From: Amblyomma americanum | Taxonomy: Eukaryota > Arthropoda > Arachnida > Ixodida > Ixodidae | NCBI RefSeq assembly: GCF_052857255.1 | Contig: NC_135497.1 | Location: forward strand, 344,574,183 to 344,638,182 | Direction: 5' to 3' | Length of the DNA: 64,000 nt | In this document: piece after piece, positions 2,191 to 58,973 of the stretch | How positions within the stretch are numbered: position 1 is the stretch's first letter | Layout of the letters: each line of letters opens with the position of its first letter | Notes under the pieces: generated by a model | Databases searched by the model: none | Seen by the model: only the letters and a program-made list of their open reading frames with translations | What the model was told of the DNA's origin: nothing | Translations under genes and position numbers: made by a program

Positions 2191-2201
2191 TTCATTTTCG
2201 C

Positions 2202-3101
2202 TCCCCCTCCCTACCCCCGCAAGCAGTGACAAAGGCACAGGAAGCACTGGCTGCTTGACAGCACCACTGTGACGGCCGAGGACACCTGGCGCCAAGAAGG
2301 CATGCGAGGCGCGAACAACGAGCACGTGGGGCCGCTAGGTCTCAGGCAGCATTCCCATGGTGGCAGAATGCGAATTACCTCGCATTCCTCGATGGGCCTT
2401 TTTTTTTCTTCTTTTTTGGCATTCTCGATGGCACCAAAGCGTCGCGGTTCTCCGCCGTCTGACATTCCTGCGGCGAGCCAGTGGGTCAGTGGCCCGCCAA
2501 TTAGCTAAAGAAAAAACGCTTCATCTTTTGAGAGGCGACGCGGGGGTGCGGCAGGGAAAGGGAAAGCATCAAGCACTAAGGCCGAGAACTCCCCTCGAGG
2601 ACAGGGCTTTCAGAATGTTTTCTGTATGTGTTTCTTTTTCTTTATAGCCAAGCCCCGGGCTCGAAGTTGGGTCCAACCTTCAGGGGCTGTGGCTACCTCC
2701 ATTGGTTATCGGAGCTTAGGGCGGGCCTCGATATATGACCGCCCTAACTTCTTTGTTTTGAAAAAGCTTTAAAATTGCATGAAAAATCATTGGAGGGCAG
2801 TCCTGTCTAGTTCAGCTAGAGGCTCCGTGCAGAGGCACGTAATTCTGCAACCCTAGACTCTAACCTCGCGTCGATGAGTAAGGGCTTGTAGAGAGTGTTT
2901 CTCTGTGTGAGAATTGTCTTTGTCAGTTACAGCTTGACCGTCTGTGTGACTCAAATTGTAACGCAGTTTGCCTTTGTACATACTGTAAATATATTCTCTC
3001 TTTGACCTTCATCTGCACATCTCCATTCATCACCGCCGAACAACAACGTTTGGAAGGGTCTGCACCCTTCCGAAGAACCCAACGGACCATCAAAAAATTA
3101 C
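2202..3101 (+). repeat. 5' LTR of the Gmr1-like element, 5'-truncated
   Basis: Aligns with the right LTR over about 900 bases with few differences. Similarity starts at the shared CCCCCTCCCTACCCCCGC, so about 80 bases at the LTR start are missing and gypsy-remnant sequence adjoins directly. No target duplication can therefore be scored on this side. The repeat ends in ATTAC immediately before TGGCGCAGC. Confidence 0.8.
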
Positions 3102-3119
3102 TGGCGCAGCACGACAGAA
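3102..3119 (+). promoter_or_regulatory. Primer-binding site candidate
   Basis: TGGCGCAGCACGACAGAA begins directly at the end of the left LTR. The leading TGG matches the CCA end of a tRNA, as expected of a minus-strand primer site. I cannot name the tRNA from sequence alone. Confidence 0.5.
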
Positions 3120-8245: not shown

Positions 8246-9227
8246 TGTAAGGCCGCGCTTCATCAACGCGCATATTTTTGTTTTATTCCTTTAGCTTGTG
8301 GTCACTGCGGGCCTCCGGTCTACGCCCCCCCTCCCTACCCCCGCAAGCAGTGGCAAAGGCGCAGGAAGCACTGGCTGCTTGACAGCACCACTGTGATGGC
8401 CAAGGACACCTGGCGCCAAGAAAGCATGCGAGGCGCGAACAACGAGCACGTGGACTGCTAGGTCTCAGGCAGCATTCCCATGGCGGCAGAATGCGAACCA
8501 CCTCGCATTCCGCGATGGGCCTTTTTTTCTTGTTTTTTTTTTTGGCGTTCTCGATGGCACCGAAGTGTCGCGGTTCTCCGCCGTCTGACATCCCTGCGGC
8601 GAGCCAGTGGGTCAGTGGTCCCGCCAATTAGCTAAAGAAAAACGCTTCATCCTTTGAGAGGCGACGCGGGGGTGCGGCAGGGAAAGGGAAAGCATCAAGC
8701 ACTAAGGCCGAGAACTCCCCTCGAGGAGAGGGTTTTGAGAATGTTTTCTGTATGTGTTTTTTTTTTCTTTATAGCCAAGCCCCGGGCTCGAAGTTGGGCC
8801 CAACCTTCAGGGGCTGTGGCTACCTCCATTGGTTATCGGAGCTTAGGGCGGGCCTCGATATATGACCGCCCTAACTTCTTTGGTTTGAAAAAGCTTTAAA
8901 ATTGCATGCAAAATCATTGGAAGGCAGTCCTGTCTAGTTCAGCTAGAGGCTCCGTGCAGTGGCACGTAATTCTGCAACCCTAGACTCTAACCTCGCGTCG
9001 ATCAGTAAGGGCTTGTAGAGAGTGTTTCTCTGTGTGAGAATTGTCTTTGTCAGTTACAGCTTGACCGTCTGTGTGACTCAACTTGTAACGCAGTTTCCCT
9101 TGTACATACTGTAAATATATTCTCTCTTTGACCTTCATCTGCACATCTCCCTTCATCACCGCCGAACAACAACGTTTGGAAGGGTCTGCACCCTTCCGAA
9201 GAACCCAACGGACCATAAAAAAATTAC
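8246..9227 (+). repeat. 3' LTR of the Gmr1-like element
   Basis: A 982-base repeat beginning TGTAAGGCC just after the polypurine tract and ending ATTAC. It matches 2202-3101 apart from its first ~80 bases, which the left copy lacks. Remnant gypsy LTR sequence follows at 9232. Confidence 0.8.
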
Positions 9228-9231
9228 TCAC

Positions 9232-50269: not shown

Positions 50270-50271
50270 AT

Positions 50272-50310
50272 TCGCAAGTTCCGTAGATGGTGGCGCCGCG
50301 CACCGGTGAG
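50272..50310 (+). repeat. Left terminal inverted repeat of the ISL2EU-type element
   Basis: TCGCAAGTTCCGTAGATGG, then a GGCGCC block. Partner at the right end 58933-58971 (reverse complement TCGGAAGTTCCACGGGC). Confidence 0.7.
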
Positions 50311-50432
50311 GCCGAGAAACGCCACAGAGATGATCGGCGCGAGCAAGCGCAGGCGTGTGTGCGGGAGCTAGGACTTCGCAGTTTTTTACTTTGTTCGAGC
50401 TGCGCGTCAGCGGCGTCTTAAGGCTGTTTGCG

Positions 50433-53400
50433 ATGGAAAAAAGAAGAAAGTACAAGAGCAACAGGATGTGCTGCGTGCCCCAGTGCACAAACCGGGCAGT
50501 GTGCGGACAAACAAGTCTGCATTCTTTTCCCGCTGACGCCCGTCTGAAAAAGCTGTGGGTGATTAAGCTGCGCATCTGGAAACGTGTGACACCGCCGATG
50601 AAGGTGTGCAGTGCCCACTTTGTGGAGGACGACTTCTTTTGGAGCCGTATTGGTAAGCGATGCGCTATTCATTTCACTATTATGCAAGCACAAATCGACT
50701 GTCTAGCGCAAATATCTCTGCAGTGTATGTGCGCAAGGAATGAGCGGGCGACCAATGCAGATCTCAGGCTGTAGAAGGGAGCTGCAACAAAATGCGTCGC
50801 TAAGCTGGGAAGTTGGCGTCAAGCTGTGCATTTGTGTAAATGCACAATCGTGAGATCTTTTCTGCCCACTAACAGCTGCTCATTTGTATGATGGTACCCG
50901 CCGCGATGGCTCAGTGGCTTTGGCGTTCGGCTCGTGATCGCAATGTCGCGGGCGAAATGCAAAAAAAAACGCCCATGTTTTCTGCGATGTGAGCTCACGT
51001 TAAATAACCCTACATAGTCTACATTAATTCAGAGTCCTCCACTACGGCAACCTCTCATTAGCTGAGCCGCTTCGCGACCTGAAACCCACAATGCACAATG
51101 TGAGGTCACTTATGCTCATTGGTACCGTCGCGGGAATACACAAGCAGACGTGGGCACAAGTTTCTTGTTAATTTCTGCTTAAAGCGAATATCACTGTCTG
51201 AGTCACCCACTACGGTGAAATAACAGCCTGTGAAGGTGGTGCAGGGTAGCTATGATACAGTTCAGCGTAGTGTGCGATGCCGCATTCTACCACTGTCTTT
51301 TGCTGCAGTTCTATGCACGGAGCACCCTCAATGGAAGCAATATATGGTTGTACTTAAACAACTGTGTAATGCATCTTTTGTCAGTAATTCCTGCAGCAGT
51401 CCTAGTGAAGTGCTGCATCAGTTTGCAAAAATTAGTAGCTTGTGCAGAGTGAAGCAACTAATGATAGCATTTCTGTCTTAACAGTGCCGCACTTTCAAAC
51501 CATTGTCAGAGATAGAAGGCGTAGCTGCATTGAGCTAGGAGGTAATTCATAATTTACTCTACAGATGCAAACATATAGACACCAGTTCGCAAGAGGCTCA
51601 AGAAAACTGCTATACCTTCACAATGCCTACCAAACAGAACTCACGACCACCAGGACCTTCAAAGAGCACAAGCATCAGCAGCCCGTGCTGCGCGAGCATC
51701 CGCTAGGGATAGCCACGGTAAGTTATTTTCAAACCTGGCTGAGACATGGTTGCATTATTGCCAAATTTCTTTATTAGATGCTAATTTCATTCAGTCAAGC
51801 ACTTCGCTTTTTTATAAGTCTACGCTGTACAAATTACAATACACTAGAAACAACTGACGCATACACCTTTCTAAAATCTAAGGTACACAACAGATTACAC
51901 AACTTAATGCAGTGGCACTCTTATTTCTTTGTTATGGCAGAGAAATGTGCGTGTTCATTTTTTTTCAGTGATGCTACCCGAACGCAGTGGTATCTCGGAC
52001 CTGTCCTCTCCACCATTGGCCCCTTCAGATGGAGATACATCTACAGGGATGTCTGCGGTGAGCATTGACTTACCACATTTGTCTAGTTTGAAGCATTACT
52101 TTCCCTCTGAAAATTCTCACATACTCTTTATCAGCTGTCAATTTCCTGCACCATCCTTTGCATCTCTCGTCATTCAGGTGGCATGTGCAGACAGTGACAC
52201 TATCCCTTAAGCCTTCGTTAAGGCATATTGATAACATCCGCTGTGAAATACAAAACCCCTTGGTAAAAGATTAACATCTAATGAACCACAGTGTGGCGCA
52301 TGTGCAACTCATAAATTTCTGCAGAAATGTTGTGCAGCTGAGGGACGCATTAATAGCTAAATATTAACATTGCAGTAAAAATATTCCTTTGCATGGAACA
52401 TAGAAAACTGAGAAGTATGTAAAAGGTATGTTACTACTCTTTGTGCCTATTTTAGTGCTCATGTTGTAGCTACATCTTTTTCTTCAGTTGCTGGTGTGTG
52501 GAAATTTGTTTTGTCAAGGTGTGCTAACCCAACCATAACGAGACAGAGGGAGCCTGCAAGCACTGATGGGCAGTTTTTGAGAGTTAGGAGTATGAATAAT
52601 TGAAAATCACTTGTTCCAGTACCAAGTTGTGCCTGTTGCATGAGCCTCGCAGTGATTGTTCTTCGGGGTGTAATGTAAAACACTAATAAGATTTGTTTGT
52701 GCATAAGATGGGGAAAGAGGACAGTCCCAGCTTGATTTGTAGATAACGAGGCGAGCTGAAAATTATGACATGTAGGTATGTCTGGCTTCTGTATTTGTTA
52801 ACCGTGCAACTTTAAATGTTTATTCTCCAGATGCTACTGCAGCAAATTGCAGTACCAGCAGCATGTTTCACAGCATACTTGTCATCCTGGCCTGAAATGC
52901 TGGCTCAGATTTAGAAGGAATTTTGATATTTTTCGTTTAATGCCTTGCCCATAAACATCTTTCAATGCAGGTGGAAGATGATTGGCATGCAGCTGCATTT
53001 CATCCTGCCCCCCATGATTTCGAGACTGTGCCCAATCCAACAATGACGGATGCTGAAGTGGCAGAGGTCATGCTTCAGCTAGCAGGGCACAGCCACACCT
53101 ACACAGACAAAGGTGTACAAGTTGATACACTTTCTGCTCCGCAAAGAAAGAGGAAGGTTGTTGAATTACTGACAACAGATGTAGCTGTGTGAGTCTTCAC
53201 TGGTGTGAAGTCAAAAAGTGCGCCTTTAGCTATTTCAGAAGAGGTGGCATTGGTAGACGAAATGACCACGGACATTCCTGTGTATGAGCGTGTTGTTCTT
53301 GCACTTGTACGCCTAAAAACATGCCTGTCACTAAACTGCCTTGCCACACTATTCTGTACAAGTAAAACGACAGTGCAGAAGCATTTCTATGGCACCCTTC

Positions 53401-54043
53401 GCATCCTTGCTGCCATACTCAAAGCAGCCATTCCATGGCCATCAAAAAATGAAATAATGCTGAATATACCTCTTTGCTTTGCTCAATTTCAGGAGGTGCG
53501 GGTTGTCCTAGATTGCACAGAAGTGCAGGTAGAGAAATCGCACTGTCAGTCTTGCCGCATCCTGACATATTCTTATTACAAGGGAACACACACGGCTAAG
53601 GCACTTGTTGGGGTGTCACCTGCTGGCCTTATAACATTCATTAGTAATGGATTTGGAGGTCGTGCATCGGATAAAGCTTGTGTGCTAAAGTCCAATGTGT
53701 TGGACAAGCTGAAAAGCTTCGAAGATGACGTAATGGTTGGCAAAGACTTCTGCATTGACATGTGTGCAAAACGGGGCCTTGGTGTGGTACAGCCACCATT
53801 CCTGCGCTCTGAAGAGCAGTTCTCAGCTGAGGATGCGACTAAAACAGTTCACATTGCCAGAGCTCGAGTGCATGTGGAGAGAGCCATTCAACGCATGAAG
53901 GTGTTCAAGGTGCTTAAGGGGCCGATTCCGTGGATCTTGTTGGGGCGCTCGACCAAATCATGGTTATTATAGCAGGCATTGTTAACCTGTCAGCTCCGAT
54001 ATTGTCTGAAAAACGATTTAGTGGGGGTGTCCAGTTGCAGTAA
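50433..54043 (+). pseudogene. THAP-DDE_Tnp_4 transposase, about four exons
   Basis: Exon 1 (50433-50652) encodes a THAP finger: CCVPQC, FPADARLKKLWVIK, and KVCSAHFVEDDFF (C2CH ligands CxxxC...CxxH); donor ATTG/GTAAGC. Exon 2 (about 51565-51720, donor CACG/GTAAGT) carries KRLKKTAIPSQCLP, a usual post-THAP segment, with a TAG four codons in. Exon 3 (51969-52058) is a linker. Exon 4 (52973-54043) has an in-frame TGA at 53190-53192, then FTGVKS, a helix-turn-helix (LALVRLKTCLSLNCLATLF) and the DDE core: D in VVLDCTEVQVEK, D in GGRASDKA and E in RVHVERAIQR. A frameshift near 53935 precedes the end (RFSGGVQLQ). Phases of exons 1-4 agree. Cut-and-paste transposase in the nucleus. Confidence 0.85.
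50898..51110 (+). repeat. tRNA-derived SINE in transposase intron 1
   Basis: CCGCCGCGATGGCTCAGTGG head, then the tick SINE body (gcgatgtgagctcacgttaa, gagtcctccactacggc, ctgagccgcttcgcgacc). Same family as the SINE at 57478-57677. Confidence 0.7.
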
Positions 54044-54265
54044 TTCTTTCAGTGTAATTGTGATTATTGGATTGTAAGGTTAGCACCATGGTCATATTTT
54101 TTTGCACTGTCTTCAAAATACCTTACTACAAATCAACTGTCTGCAACTAACACTATTGTTTGCTGTGGCCTTTTCACCACTTAATGCAGTTTATCAGGCC
54201 TCATACGCCCTGGCATAACGAAGAATTGTTCTAATCATAAAATGCTTGTAGCTCCCATTCTCAGC

Positions 54266-55011
54266 AAATTCAGGCAAACATCGCCTGTTTGCAAAAGTCC
54301 CTATCAGATTGGTTTGGCTCAATTTCTGGGATTTCATGTCCTAAAGTGACTCGGGCTATGAGAGGCGTCGTAGTAGAGGGTTCCGAAATTTTGTCTGCCT
54401 GGGGTTTCTTTAACATGTGCCGACATAGTATAGCATACACGCCCTATCATTTTGCCTCCATCAAAATGCGGCAGCTGTGATTGGGTTCATGGCAAGCAGA
54501 AAATAACTTCAGGACTGAGTATGATTCAATCCAGCACTGGCACCAAAAGATCTGCTTCAGTTTCTCCTGCTGCGGCAAACTTGGCTGTCGCCACAGCTTC
54601 TCATATGGTGTGTTTTACTCATAACATTTTGCACTGTGTATCGTTGTCCTCATCTTTCATCATTTTTCTGTGCTTCCAAATGCTTGAATCCAATTGTGTG
54701 CGCTACTGCCGCCGTGCCTGTGCAACGGAGCCAGTCATGCTTACAGATACAAGACCTCGACAAGGTCTCTGCAGCTTTATTTAGGTAGACATGAAAGTGA
54801 GAAAAAGAGCAAGGAGGCCAAACTCGTCACTACGACCAGGAAAGAGCTAGTCAGTGCTATTGTGTGCCGAACAGCAAAACTAATTAGGAATGCTAAGCGC
54901 ACTGCCTGTCAGCAGCAGCCAAAGCAGCTGAACGCACCGGCAGATAAATCACAAGAAGTGGCGACTGAAGGCGACCTGGTGATATCAGGCAAAGACCGTG
55001 ACCTATACTAA
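54266..55011 (+). CDS. Unrecognised third coding segment of the ISL2EU-type element
   Basis: Plus-strand frames with coding-like composition follow the transposase. 54266-54480 encodes SLSDWFGSISGISCPKVTRA and FFNMCRHSIAYTPYHFASIK. An overlapping frame has KCGSCDWVHGKQK (54460-54605), and 54760-55011 encodes a Lys-rich C-terminus (SEKKSKEAKLVTTTRKELVS) ending in TAA at about 55010. Splice-like signals (TTCAG at 54265, an ATG/GTGTG near 54608) suggest two exons with one frameshift. I do not recognise the family. It could be the C-terminal exons of the transposase gene or a separate small protein. Confidence 0.35.
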
Positions 55012-55016
55012 TGTGT

Positions 55017-56042
55017 GCCATCTACACTCCATGAGCTATGCTAGTGTGAGGTACGCTATTTCACGCAATGCATTTCAAGCTTGCAGCCATTTAGTGCGGA
55101 GACAGGCTAGAAATTTTTTGCATTACCAGTAAACTCAAGGTTGTGTCAATGGACAGTTATTCTTTTTCTGTTAGGTGGGCCATTACTGATGGGCCAAAAG
55201 CTGTATAGCACTGTTTGCACCTTTTGTTGTGATGGTACTCTAGAGTTAATTTTATTTCTGTCTGGACATATTCTTTGGTCTGTCTGCCTTCAGGTAACTG
55301 GGTACTCTGCTATGGTCAGTACTGTTCTATGTTATTGAGCACCTGTATAATGTGCACTTTTAATTAGCACGACCTACTTGAAAATCCTTAGCATATTGTG
55401 AAGTTTTATGCTCAGAATTTTGATGTATTGTTCAATGCTGTGCATATTTCTTTCTCCTGACTTCTTTGTGACGTTAAGAAAACGTGATTGTGACGTGCTG
55501 GCTTTTGCAAACTGCCATCACACATTAACTTGTGTTCTGTTAATAATGAAGTTAAATTAAATGGAAATAAAGCTATAAATGAGATTTGTAGTTTCATGCA
55601 AAACACCTTTGAAAATTTACCCTCGAGGCAGAAAATCTTGCCGTCAATGAGCTGTAGGGCATGTGCTTTGGAATCACACAAGTGATTTCGAAACTGATCT
55701 TTTAGTGCTGTCTTGGGATACGTTTTCTGTAAGTAATACTGACAGGCTGACTGTTTTTGAAGCTGGTTATTTTTCTTTCACTGTCTATGTTGTTGTTTTT
55801 CACCCTTTGCAATTGCTGCATAAAGCGGTATGTTCCTGCTGTGTACAAGTCCAAGAAATTACGTCTCTTCTGCAATATCTTTAACCTTCCTTAAGGTAGC
55901 ACTGCTTGTTTCTTTAGTGCAACAAGTAAAACAACCACAGGTTCTCTGTGCACTAGAATGAAAATGTTTATTAAAATTGCACAAAACCTGCAACGCAGTC
56001 TTCCATCTTACAAGCTGTGCTTGTTGGCGTAGCAAATCAACC
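55017..56042. other. Space between convergent genes of the ISL2EU-type element
   Basis: Noncoding, AT-rich. It separates the plus-strand genes from the minus-strand nuclease gene. Nothing recognisable. Confidence 0.5.
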
Positions 56043-57428
56043 TTACACAACTTTTGTCAGCTTTGGCAGCAGATGTTTAAAATACACGAACTGCAGTTTG
56101 CGTACAAGATCATCAATGTGATGGTCACATCGCGCCACATTTACAATGAGTGACTGTATCTTAGAATACACGATGAAATGTGCCATATCTAAGTTCAAAA
56201 GGAACATCCCAAGTTGCACTTGAGAAAAATAATTGTGAATTTTGTTTACAACGAAATTTTCACCATCTTTCTTTAAGTATTTTAACTTCCCTTTATGGGC
56301 AATATCAATTGCTTCCCGAGTTTTTCCCAGAAGGGGACTTTTTACCTCAATCAGGATGGCAGGACAACCATTCTTGAACACAACGCCATCAGGGCTGTAG
56401 TCAAGCCAAGGGAAGAGAGGGTTCACAAGCAGCCCTAGCTTTGTTACAGCATTTGATGTCATTTTGTAATACTCTTCTAGAGCAGGTTCCTCGGAAGCTT
56501 TCAAATACCGAGTAGCCTTATTTTCTTGGAAACAATAGGCGAGCATTGCGGTCGCTTTTTGTTCCCATGACTGGTCTTCTCTGGGTAAAAAGGTGAAATA
56601 TGCACGGCACTTGCTGCCAGTTATCCGCACTTGCCGTTCTCTTTCCCACTTGGTGGTATTCTGGGAGTGGGTTTCTTTGCAGATCCTCACTGCTTGTTCT
56701 TGGGACACTTCTACATACTTCTCGTAAAACTGTTGTTCTGCTTGTGACAGATGACTGTACGAAAATCTATATATTTTAAGCTGAAATTCATCGGTGAATG
56801 CCACGTCATGGAAAAGCATCTTTCTGTATGGCATCACTCTTCAGCAGCCATGTGGCACACCATCACATGCTCTTTTAATGTTGCGGTGGCTTTAGTTTCA
56901 GTGGCATCAGTTTGCCGAAACCTTCCGTGAAAGTGCAGCGCAAGTGCACTATCTGGTACTGCTGCCATGAGGCGCTGTCGTATATCGTGCAGTCTCTGCT
57001 CTGTAAGTTGCAGTTGTGGCTGTGCCGGCACATGGCACAAATTCTTCAGCTCTTGTGCTTCGTACAGCAGTTTGGATCTCAATCTTCCCCACGCCCTTTC
57101 CATATCCGTGCATGTAAGATGTTCAAGGTTCTGTATGCCCGTCATGCAGATCAACCAAGAAAAGAACACAGGTGTTACTTTGCTAGTGCTTAAAAATATA
57201 TTGCTTCTCGTATTCAAAGTAGTAAGACATTTGAAGAAGGTGGTAAAAACTGTTTAAATTTAATGTTTAAAAAGTGTTTAAACTGTTTAAAATTTAAGCA
57301 GTTCAGCTCATTAACAATGTATTTCTTTGGAAAAATAAAAAAGAAAATTTCTTGCCTGTTCATAAACAGCAGCATTGCAATTATGTGCTTGCAGCGTTGT
57401 GATTTTCCTGCTTTGCATGAGCACTGGC
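56043..57428 (-). pseudogene. SWIM zinc-finger and YqaJ-like nuclease protein
   Basis: An exon at about 57428-57358, after a polypyrimidine/CAG acceptor, encodes CQCSCKAGKSQRCKHIIAML, a SWIM finger (CxC...CxH). The next exon (57150-56840) begins NLEHLTCTDMERAWGRL. The YqaJ domain follows in another frame (56837-56043, 264 codons): TKWERERQVRITGSKCRAYF, then catalytic D150 in LDYSPDGVVF and E164/K166 in AILIEVKSP, the PD-(D/E)xK core of lambda-exonuclease-like recombinases; the end reads KHLLPKLTKVV. The frame change at 56835 is an indel or a small intron. Such proteins may process transposon ends; their exact role is not established. The N-terminus is not located. Confidence 0.8.
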
Positions 57429-57462
57429 ACTGAAAAAAAAAAAGAGGGGGAGATTGCACAAT

Positions 57463-57692
57463 CAAATACTGCAACTGAGCTGCCGCGGTGGCTGAGTGGT
57501 CATGATGGTCAGCTGCTGAGCTGAAGAACGTGATTTCGATCCCGGCCGCGGCAGTCGCACTTCGCTTATGTGCGATGTCATTGCACGAATCCCAGATAGT
57601 AGAAATCACGGAGTGCTCCACTACGGCGTCTCTGATAGCCTTGAGTCGCTTGAGACGTTAAACCCTACAAACCAAACCAAATACTGAAACTG
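57463..57692 (+). repeat. tRNA-derived SINE with 15-base target duplication
   Basis: The SINE body is 57478-57677: AGCTGCCGCGGTGGCTGAGT head with B box GATTTCGATCC, GCGATGTCATTGCACGAATC, TCCACTACGGCG and GAGACGTTAAACCC. CAAATACTGCAACTG (57463-57477) and CAAATACTGAAACTG (57678-57692) flank it, a target duplication with one mismatch. It sits upstream of the SWIM exon in its likely intron. Confidence 0.9.
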
Positions 57693-58084
57693 CTCGCAAA
57701 CGTTAATGATTTTCATTCAATTTTGCGTGCATGCCTTTCTCCCCTAACGCCTCTGCAAGCGGAAACATCGTTACGGGTGCGCGCACGTGTACGCACGGTG
57801 CCAAAAACGTAGTAAATGTAGAGCACTCGAAGTGGCGTACTGTAGAGCAAGTGAATTTAAACCATCTTGCGGCACTCTTGGCTGTGCGGTTATTTCTGCT
57901 CGGCTGCGCTCGTGCGCAAATATCAGTACATACTTTAGAATTTCGCTTCATTTCACCCGCACAGCACAACTCGCGTGATCGAGAGAGAGCAATGTGAATT
58001 GCCGCTGCTGCATGCACGCGCTTTTCACTGCGATTCGGGCCCCGCTTGAGACCGCACTGCCTATGAAACGAGATCTGCCCTCAG

Positions 58085-58515
58085 TTATCGCAGGGCCGTT
58101 TCACATGATGCGATTGTTGCCGCAGCGCAGTGCGATTTATGCCACTGTGCGACAGAAATGCGTGTCGTTCTCGTCGCAGGTCCACTGCGACAGACTTTCA
58201 ACAAGGTGGTCGCACTGTCGCAGCGTCGGTGCGGTCGGAGCGACGGCCACAGTACTTAGCCTGGTTATCTGCTTTGGAAAGGCGAAAACGTTTTACTGAA
58301 CATAATAATACATCATGGCTCGATATTATTACCCATGATTACGAAATCAACGCCTGCCACGATGTTTGACATTTGTTGCAGCCGAAGAATTTTCGGCCAC
58401 TGAAAGGCCGCACCGACGCTAGGGCGCTGGTGCCGACGGCACCGACTGAATTCATCGTTGTCATGTGAAACGGTGGCTGCGATTACCGTCGCAACGACAG
58501 TGCGACCGGGCCGTT
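58085..58515. repeat. Foldback (MITE-like) repeat inside the ISL2EU-type element
   Basis: CCGTTTCACATGA occurs directly at about 58094 and inverted near 58460, and GCGTCGGTGCGG occurs at about 58219 and inverted near 58415. Arms are imperfect, about 150 bases. No coding sequence. Confidence 0.45.
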
Positions 58516-58932
58516 TTTTTTTTTCATTCGCGTCGCACTATACAACAATTTGTATGCAAAATGTAAACTCACATGCCTGCAACGAGGCATCAATTCCATA
58601 AACGCACTTCACTTCGTGCGGCTTCTGCTCCACGTCCGATGTTTGCAAGCAGAGGCCTTGCACTGTCGCAGACGCAGGGGAGCAATCCTTCAGGCCACAG
58701 CAGATCAGGTGGCCGGCGTTGAGGACTTCTTCGCCTTCAATCAAGCACTGGATTCGTCTTTTCTCTTGTCCAATATGTTTCATTATGCCTCCAAGACACA
58801 ATGGCCGAGTAAACGAAGGTGGCATGGTTGCTAGCGAGCGAAGAGCACAACAAAGAGACCGGCCGTACGCTGCGCTTATGGACTAGACCAGCTATGCGGC
58901 CGCACGAATCATCTCTCCGGGAGCCATATTGG

Positions 58933-58971
58933 ATTGCCTCGCGCGCCACCTATAGCCCGTGGAACTTCCGA
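58933..58971 (-). repeat. Right terminal inverted repeat of the ISL2EU-type element
   Basis: Ends CGTGGAACTTCCGA on plus, directly before AT. Inverse of the left end with several mismatches and short gaps. Confidence 0.7.
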
Positions 58972-58973
58972 AT

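Follow-up and report, generated by a model that had tools for sequence, protein, structure and literature searches.

A 64,000-nucleotide stretch of the Amblyomma americanum genome (assembly GCF_052857255.1, contig NC_135497.1, positions 344,574,183 to 344,638,182 of the forward strand; here called the window, with positions counted from its first nucleotide) contains an 8700-bp element (50272 to 58971) that is very probably a decayed copy of an ISL2EU-type cut-and-paste transposon family in this tick. The element carries two convergent genes: a transposase gene starting near the left end and a nuclease gene starting near the right end. Comparison of sublineages of the family suggests that the nuclease has been under purifying selection to a degree similar to that of the transposase. 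The role of the second open reading frame (ORF) of ISL2EU transposons is left open in the available text of Han et al. 2015 (PMC4482050); in the tick copies, the evidence of selection on the nuclease inclines us to regard this protein as part of the machine rather than as a passenger. The overall explanation that we favor, an ISL2EU-type family whose nuclease acts in resection of the donor break, is held at somewhat below even chances. Taken alone, the element adds a further member to a group already known. New are the tick family with its TCG ends and T|AT|A targets, the presence of a SWIM/ZSWIM-like module, and the test for selection; the architecture had been described before.

The limits of the element were defined by ends that are common to other copies and by an empty site obtained from the joined flanks. 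An AT dinucleotide stands directly before the left end (50270 to 50271; identified from the sequence, the other copies, and the joined flanks) and directly after the right end (58972 to 58973; identified from the sequence and the joined flanks). The termini, TCGCAAGTTCC on the plus strand (50272 to 50282) and TCGGAAGTTCC on the minus strand (58961 to 58971), are imperfect 11-bp inverted repeats with 10 of 11 bases identical, a match equalled by none of 20,000 random pairs drawn from the element. The 8-mer GGTGGCGC occurs only twice within the element, in inverted orientation and once near each end (50289 to 50296 on the plus strand, element position 18, and 58943 to 58950 on the minus strand, element position 8672). 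However, the local alignment of the ends over 60 bases was only weakly unusual, its score being reached by 40 of 1000 shuffles, and for this reason we take the empty site and the copies elsewhere in the genome as the proof of the element ends.

Both flanks are parts of one minus-strand reverse-transcriptase gene, with matches to RVT_1 profile positions 1 to 143 on one side (6.6e-16) and 150 to 204 on the other (1.4e-5; 25.4 bits, below the cut-off of 29.6 bits). Joining the flanks with the removal of one AT gave an unbroken reverse-transcriptase frame of 421 residues with a YADD motif, and the frame was broken when 0, 1, 3, 4, or 6 bases were removed. The frame also stayed open, with one residue fewer, after the removal of 5 bases, but the flanks have no 5 bases in common. 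The lengths shared by the flanks are only 2 (AT) and 4 (ATAT), and since only the former restores the frame, the duplication is AT. The element is thus inserted into a reverse-transcriptase gene with a 2-bp AT duplication, and the limits, inverted repeats, and duplication given in the preliminary description stand.

Searches of the genome (2.56 Gb) with the DNA of the two genes returned 39 nuclease matches, merged into 35 loci, and 32 transposase matches, merged into 29 loci. Twenty-five nuclease loci and 25 transposase loci lie within 10 kb of each other, one of these paired loci having only a 46-base remnant of the nuclease. With both genes this close at 25 loci and with the pair suggested in Ixodes and other assemblies, it is exceedingly improbable that the nuclease is an unrelated gene, captured from the host or a virus by the window copy alone. 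Nothing was found in favor of this idea, and a chance or nested gene was rejected on the basis of the other copies that carry both genes. The preliminary description would have been contradicted had the nuclease always been found without the transposase; 25 of the 35 nuclease loci are near a transposase locus. Three observations count against the favored explanation: 10 of the 35 nuclease loci have no transposase within 10 kb, five of these 10 (L010, L011, L012, L023, and L046) have an internal deletion, with other sequence standing in its place in L046, and two transposase loci that are 95 to 96% identical to the window copy lack the nuclease. Four transposase loci in all lack the nuclease, two of them being less than 70% identical to the family of the window element. 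The window copy itself lacks ~360 bp near 55461 to 55467 that are present in the other loci whose alignment spans that point. A search with the left end identified 33 loci, with the nuclease within 20 kb in 28, only the transposase in 2, and neither in 3; no large burst of small non-autonomous relatives was seen among them, although short derivatives could have escaped, as the query included part of exon 1.

We read ~10 kb of DNA at 12 loci and ~4 kb at 30, together with 15 end pieces from 8 loci and 11 short transposase pieces from 11 loci; no element end was present in 6 of the end pieces, and two of the transposase pieces (L068 and L074) contained no element sequence, the transposase of L074 being located farther off than the short piece read. 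Several copies share their flanks. In the C1 set, the window copy, L010, and L011 share one right flank, and L031 has a left end but no readable right end; L047 to L050 (C4 set) have the same left flank, and L032 and L033 (C5 pair) have the same right flank. Four left ends lie inside ~105 kb in the C1 region (344.62 to 344.73 Mb). Local hopping was rejected as the source of the three clusters because the common flanks identify their members as segmental duplicates, and each set was therefore counted once in the target tallies.

All six independent insertions with both ends read, the window copy included, have AT duplications and both ends in common, in contrast to the outcome that the preliminary description had named as fatal to it, that no other copies share the ends. 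Among independent insertions, all 9 with a readable left end have AT directly before it, and all 10 with a readable right end have AT directly after it; one duplicate copy, L050, has AC instead. T stands before AT at 8 of the 9 left ends, and AT is followed at the 10 right ends by A (7), T (2), or G (1), so that the target pattern of the tick family looks to be mostly T|AT|A. These counts cover the ends that were reached and not diverged, which excludes, among others, the right ends of L042, L043, L019, L031, and the C4 set and the left ends of L015, L018, and L019. Among the 24 family copies of nuclease exon 3, the mean pairwise identity was 96.4%, the closest pair outside duplicated blocks being 98.4% identical and the C1 duplicates up to 98.6%; judged from these sequences, the transposon family is not young.

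The exon limits of both genes were placed by homology, without transcripts. Transposase exon 1 (50433 to 50652, plus strand) encodes the THAP domain (PF05485, 1.9e-10) and was placed by tblastn with P0033, its splice donor being set by eye. Exon 2 (51561 to 51720, plus strand; approximate limits) was located by tblastn with P0016, P0017, and P0019, and exon 3 (52971 to 54043, plus strand), located by Pfam, tblastn, and alignments, encodes HTH_Tnp_4 and DDE_Tnp_4 (1.7e-31). The HTH_Tnp_4 match (1.7e-5, 24.7 bits) is slightly below the cut-off of 27, and the domain was detected in all 18 members of relative set A1 at E values up to 0.01. In the window copy, exon 2 has one stop, and exon 3 has one stop, a frame-shifting 1-base deletion, and a 3-base deletion. 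In addition, alignment with relatives showed that Gly (53739 to 53741, plus strand) replaces the second catalytic Asp, which is kept in 17 of 17 A1 relatives, in 42 of 42 A4 relatives (picked from the 120 matches listed), and in all but one of 10 further copies from the genome. Because of the stops, the frameshift, and the lost Asp, the transposase of the window copy is expected to be inactive, and for this gene the earlier description of a complete copy with few lesions does not hold.

A profile search with the transposase revealed no solved-structure relative by sequence, and Foldseek returned only weak matches of the DDE type, the best being to the Rous sarcoma virus intasome (E value, 2.4e-3), with Metnase at 9.2e-3. 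In the model of an Ixodes relative, the first Asp (258) is within a strand, the second (334) follows the strand of residues 330 to 332, and the Glu (381) is within a helix, which is much like the placement described for PHIS transposases in the available text of PMC4482050. An A. americanum protein is 93% identical to the transposase piece (P0015), and the best-named relatives of both the transposase and the nuclease are tick sequences. A separate genome search with DDE_Tnp_4 gave 6367 first-look candidates, a large genomic stock of related transposases; all 150 that were scored matched, many of them in long open frames.

The nuclease gene is on the minus strand. Its exon 1 (58556 to 58825; tblastn with residues 1 to 90 of P0002, 60% identity, 2.4e-31) lies ~145 bp from the right end of the element. 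This exon was missed in the preliminary description, which placed the end of the gene at 57428, whereas the domain content that it assigned to the two strands and its PDG...IEVK core were recovered. The four profile matches that it had predicted were found with Pfam, those of the nuclease being to SWIM (PF04434, 1.3e-4), in an exon with approximate limits (57350 to 57432; also supported by tblastn), and to YqaJ (PF09588, 1.5e-6; 29 bits, above the cut-off of 22), in exon 3 (56043 to 57151; also supported by tblastn). In the window copy, exon 3 has a single 1-base deletion and no stops, and it retains PDG, IEVK, RITGS, and the late Gln, but Leu and Asp stand in place of two nearly invariant Gly residues of set A2 (positions 113 and 147).

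All 44 sequences compared keep the D, E, and K of the nuclease core. This bears on the proposal that the second protein serves mainly in DNA binding and nuclear import, like the Myb-like protein of Harbinger, with nuclease activity being minor; a protein that only binds would not need these residues, and we consider this role unlikely. By its PD-(D/E)xK core residues and its fold, the nuclease is of the lambda exonuclease type, and it resembles lambda Exo and LHK-Exo, its best matches in the structure comparison, in fold and sequence profile, differing in that it comes from an animal transposon and has a SWIM module attached to the nuclease domain. Another possible role is suggested by Tn7, in which TnsB and TnsA cut separate strands and TnsA is a restriction-like nuclease. 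By analogy, the DDE enzyme would cut one strand and the nuclease the other. Both enzymes are metal-dependent nucleases within one element, and the restriction-like character of TnsA also fits. However, the best structural matches of the tick nuclease are exonucleases, related DDE elements lack a second nuclease (in the accessible text of PMC4482050), and the Spy transposase is reported to be active (PMC11304231, as available in part), which makes such a split excision machine quite improbable. No match named TnsA was present among the 50 structure matches listed in either comparison, which is no evidence of a difference from the TnsA fold.

Phage and viral recombination nucleases are among the structural relatives, as would be expected if the nuclease were directed at competing elements, extrachromosomal copies, or viruses and had no part in the movement of its own element, but one of the libraries searched was viral only. 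A nuclease that keeps occurring with a single transposase type, between the same pair of ends, is better explained by a direct role, and action on such other DNA is very unlikely. As for pairing in other genomes, contig sizes were available for 65 of 69 nuclease matches and for 118 of the 120 transposase matches listed (of 480). Equal-sized contigs for the two were found in 6 cases, whereas 120 shifted controls gave 0.77 on average and 4 at most. The clearest coincidence is a 17,034-base contig of Ixodes persulcatus. An equal size points only indirectly to one and the same contig, and among short contigs some agreement by chance is likely; these counts suggest that the pair is present in Ixodes and other assemblies.

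Selection on the nuclease was assessed in exon 3 (369 codons) of the 24 family copies (30 rows aligned), L035 and the rearranged or unfetched loci being left out. Changes private to single copies were distributed over codon positions as 93/111/118 (p 0.21); 81 of them were synonymous and 241 were other changes, near the neutral share of 0.277. In contrast, among the differences from other lineages of the same genome, those between the family and the C5 pair were distributed as 23/12/44 (p 4e-5; 43 synonymous and 36 other), and those between the family and the C1:434M copy as 28/21/51 (p 6e-4; 50 and 50), with Fisher p values of 1.3e-6 and 6.4e-6, respectively, versus the private changes. The comparison with the C4 set, an older one whose copies are duplicated and have many lesions, was not significant (25/34/36, p 0.34; 33 and 62, Fisher p 0.07) and speaks against the signal. 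For transposase exon 3, six family copies were compared with the C1:434M copy and the C4 set. Private changes were again even (37/34/31, p 0.77; 24 synonymous and 78 other), versus 25/18/39 for C1:434M (p 0.015; 36 and 46, Fisher p 0.004) and 33/25/44 for C4 (p 0.07; 42 and 60, Fisher p 0.011). The number of lineages is small, and the outgroup copies' own decay works against the signal. The simplest reading of these sequences is that both proteins were maintained while the lineages moved and that both genes decay near-neutrally after insertion, which makes an idle nuclease unlikely.

We thus regard it as probable that the element uses the nuclease activity. That the use is resection of the donor break is a tentative proposal, chosen as the role that best fits a lambda-type exonuclease. 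Binding of the element ends would fall to the THAP and HTH domains, and cutting and joining at A-T-centred targets to the DDE domain. The second protein would be an active 5'-3' exonuclease, brought by its SWIM module to the ends or to the transposase, and it would resect the donor-site double-strand break produced by excision. Repair by copying from the homologue or sister would then restore the element and increase its copy number. The fixed order in which the DDE transposase excises, the ZSWIM-like module delivers the exonuclease, and resection leads to the copying back of the element is more doubtful. If it is true, a cut-and-paste transposon encodes its own copy-number amplifier rather than depending on host resection. 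A point to the contrary is that no such nuclease is described for the relatives in the accessible parts of PMC4482050 and PMC9179366, Harbinger having a Myb-like protein and Spy a transposase only, so that DDE chemistry needs none.

The assignment to the ISL2EU type agrees with the label in the preliminary description and with the make-up published for this group of the PHIS superfamily, that is, an AT duplication, a transposase with THAP, HTH, and DDE domains, a second ORF with YqaJ (in most autonomous members), and animal hosts (PMC4482050, available text), all of which are found in the tick element. Such elements had been called rare and poorly understood; the former does not agree with the 25 families from 14 animal species in that source, and the latter does, the function of the second ORF being given there as unknown. 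Some features argue against the assignment. The tick ends start with TCG, whereas those of ISL2EU usually start with GG, and the tick targets are mostly T|AT|A, whereas the published target is A|AT|T, reportedly confirmed by empty sites (PMC4482050, in the same text). The tick element (8.7 kb) is longer than the ISL2EU mean of ~4.8 kb given there. We did not treat the GG start as defining, since the source says "usually," and we kept the name because the groups are defined there by the composition of the duplication itself. The different target, however, lowered our confidence in the name from near certainty to high probability. The word SWIM, a module present in the tick nuclease, has no occurrence in the text of PMC4482050, and no tick words were found there. 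A literature search by titles and abstract starts, with most subscription papers outside its coverage, revealed no report of a tick ISL2EU element or of a SWIM-YqaJ transposon protein.

Two other transposon groups were considered. KolobokE also combines a DDD/E transposase with a PD-(D/E)xK lambda-exonuclease-like protein (PMC9587614, as available in part), but the Kolobok transposase and TTAA duplication are absent from the tick element, which has DDE_Tnp_4 and AT. PIF/Harbinger elements have a related DDE transposase and a second protein but differ in their TWA duplication and in having a Myb/SANT protein where the tick element has the nuclease (PMC4482050, available text). The assignment was rejected, as the removal of 3 bases breaks the flanking frame, 2 bases restore it, and the copies show AT.

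A SWIM and YqaJ combination was also seen in P0190 of Holotrichia oblita, a 746-amino-acid gene model that joins them to an ISXO2-like (IS1595) transposase domain; the SWIM match is below the cut-off, and the model is possibly either a second transposon type with such a nuclease or a mis-joined gene. ARAGORN identified no tRNA within the element. Two SINE-like stretches (50902 to 51100 and 57478 to 57672) were recognized by eye, each intronic and one in each gene, with a 17-base motif in common (94%); the first looks old because the alignment of the C4 copies spans it. Outside the element, the window contains a direct repeat of ~905 bp (2199 to 3102 and 8323 to 9228) with 95.5% identity.

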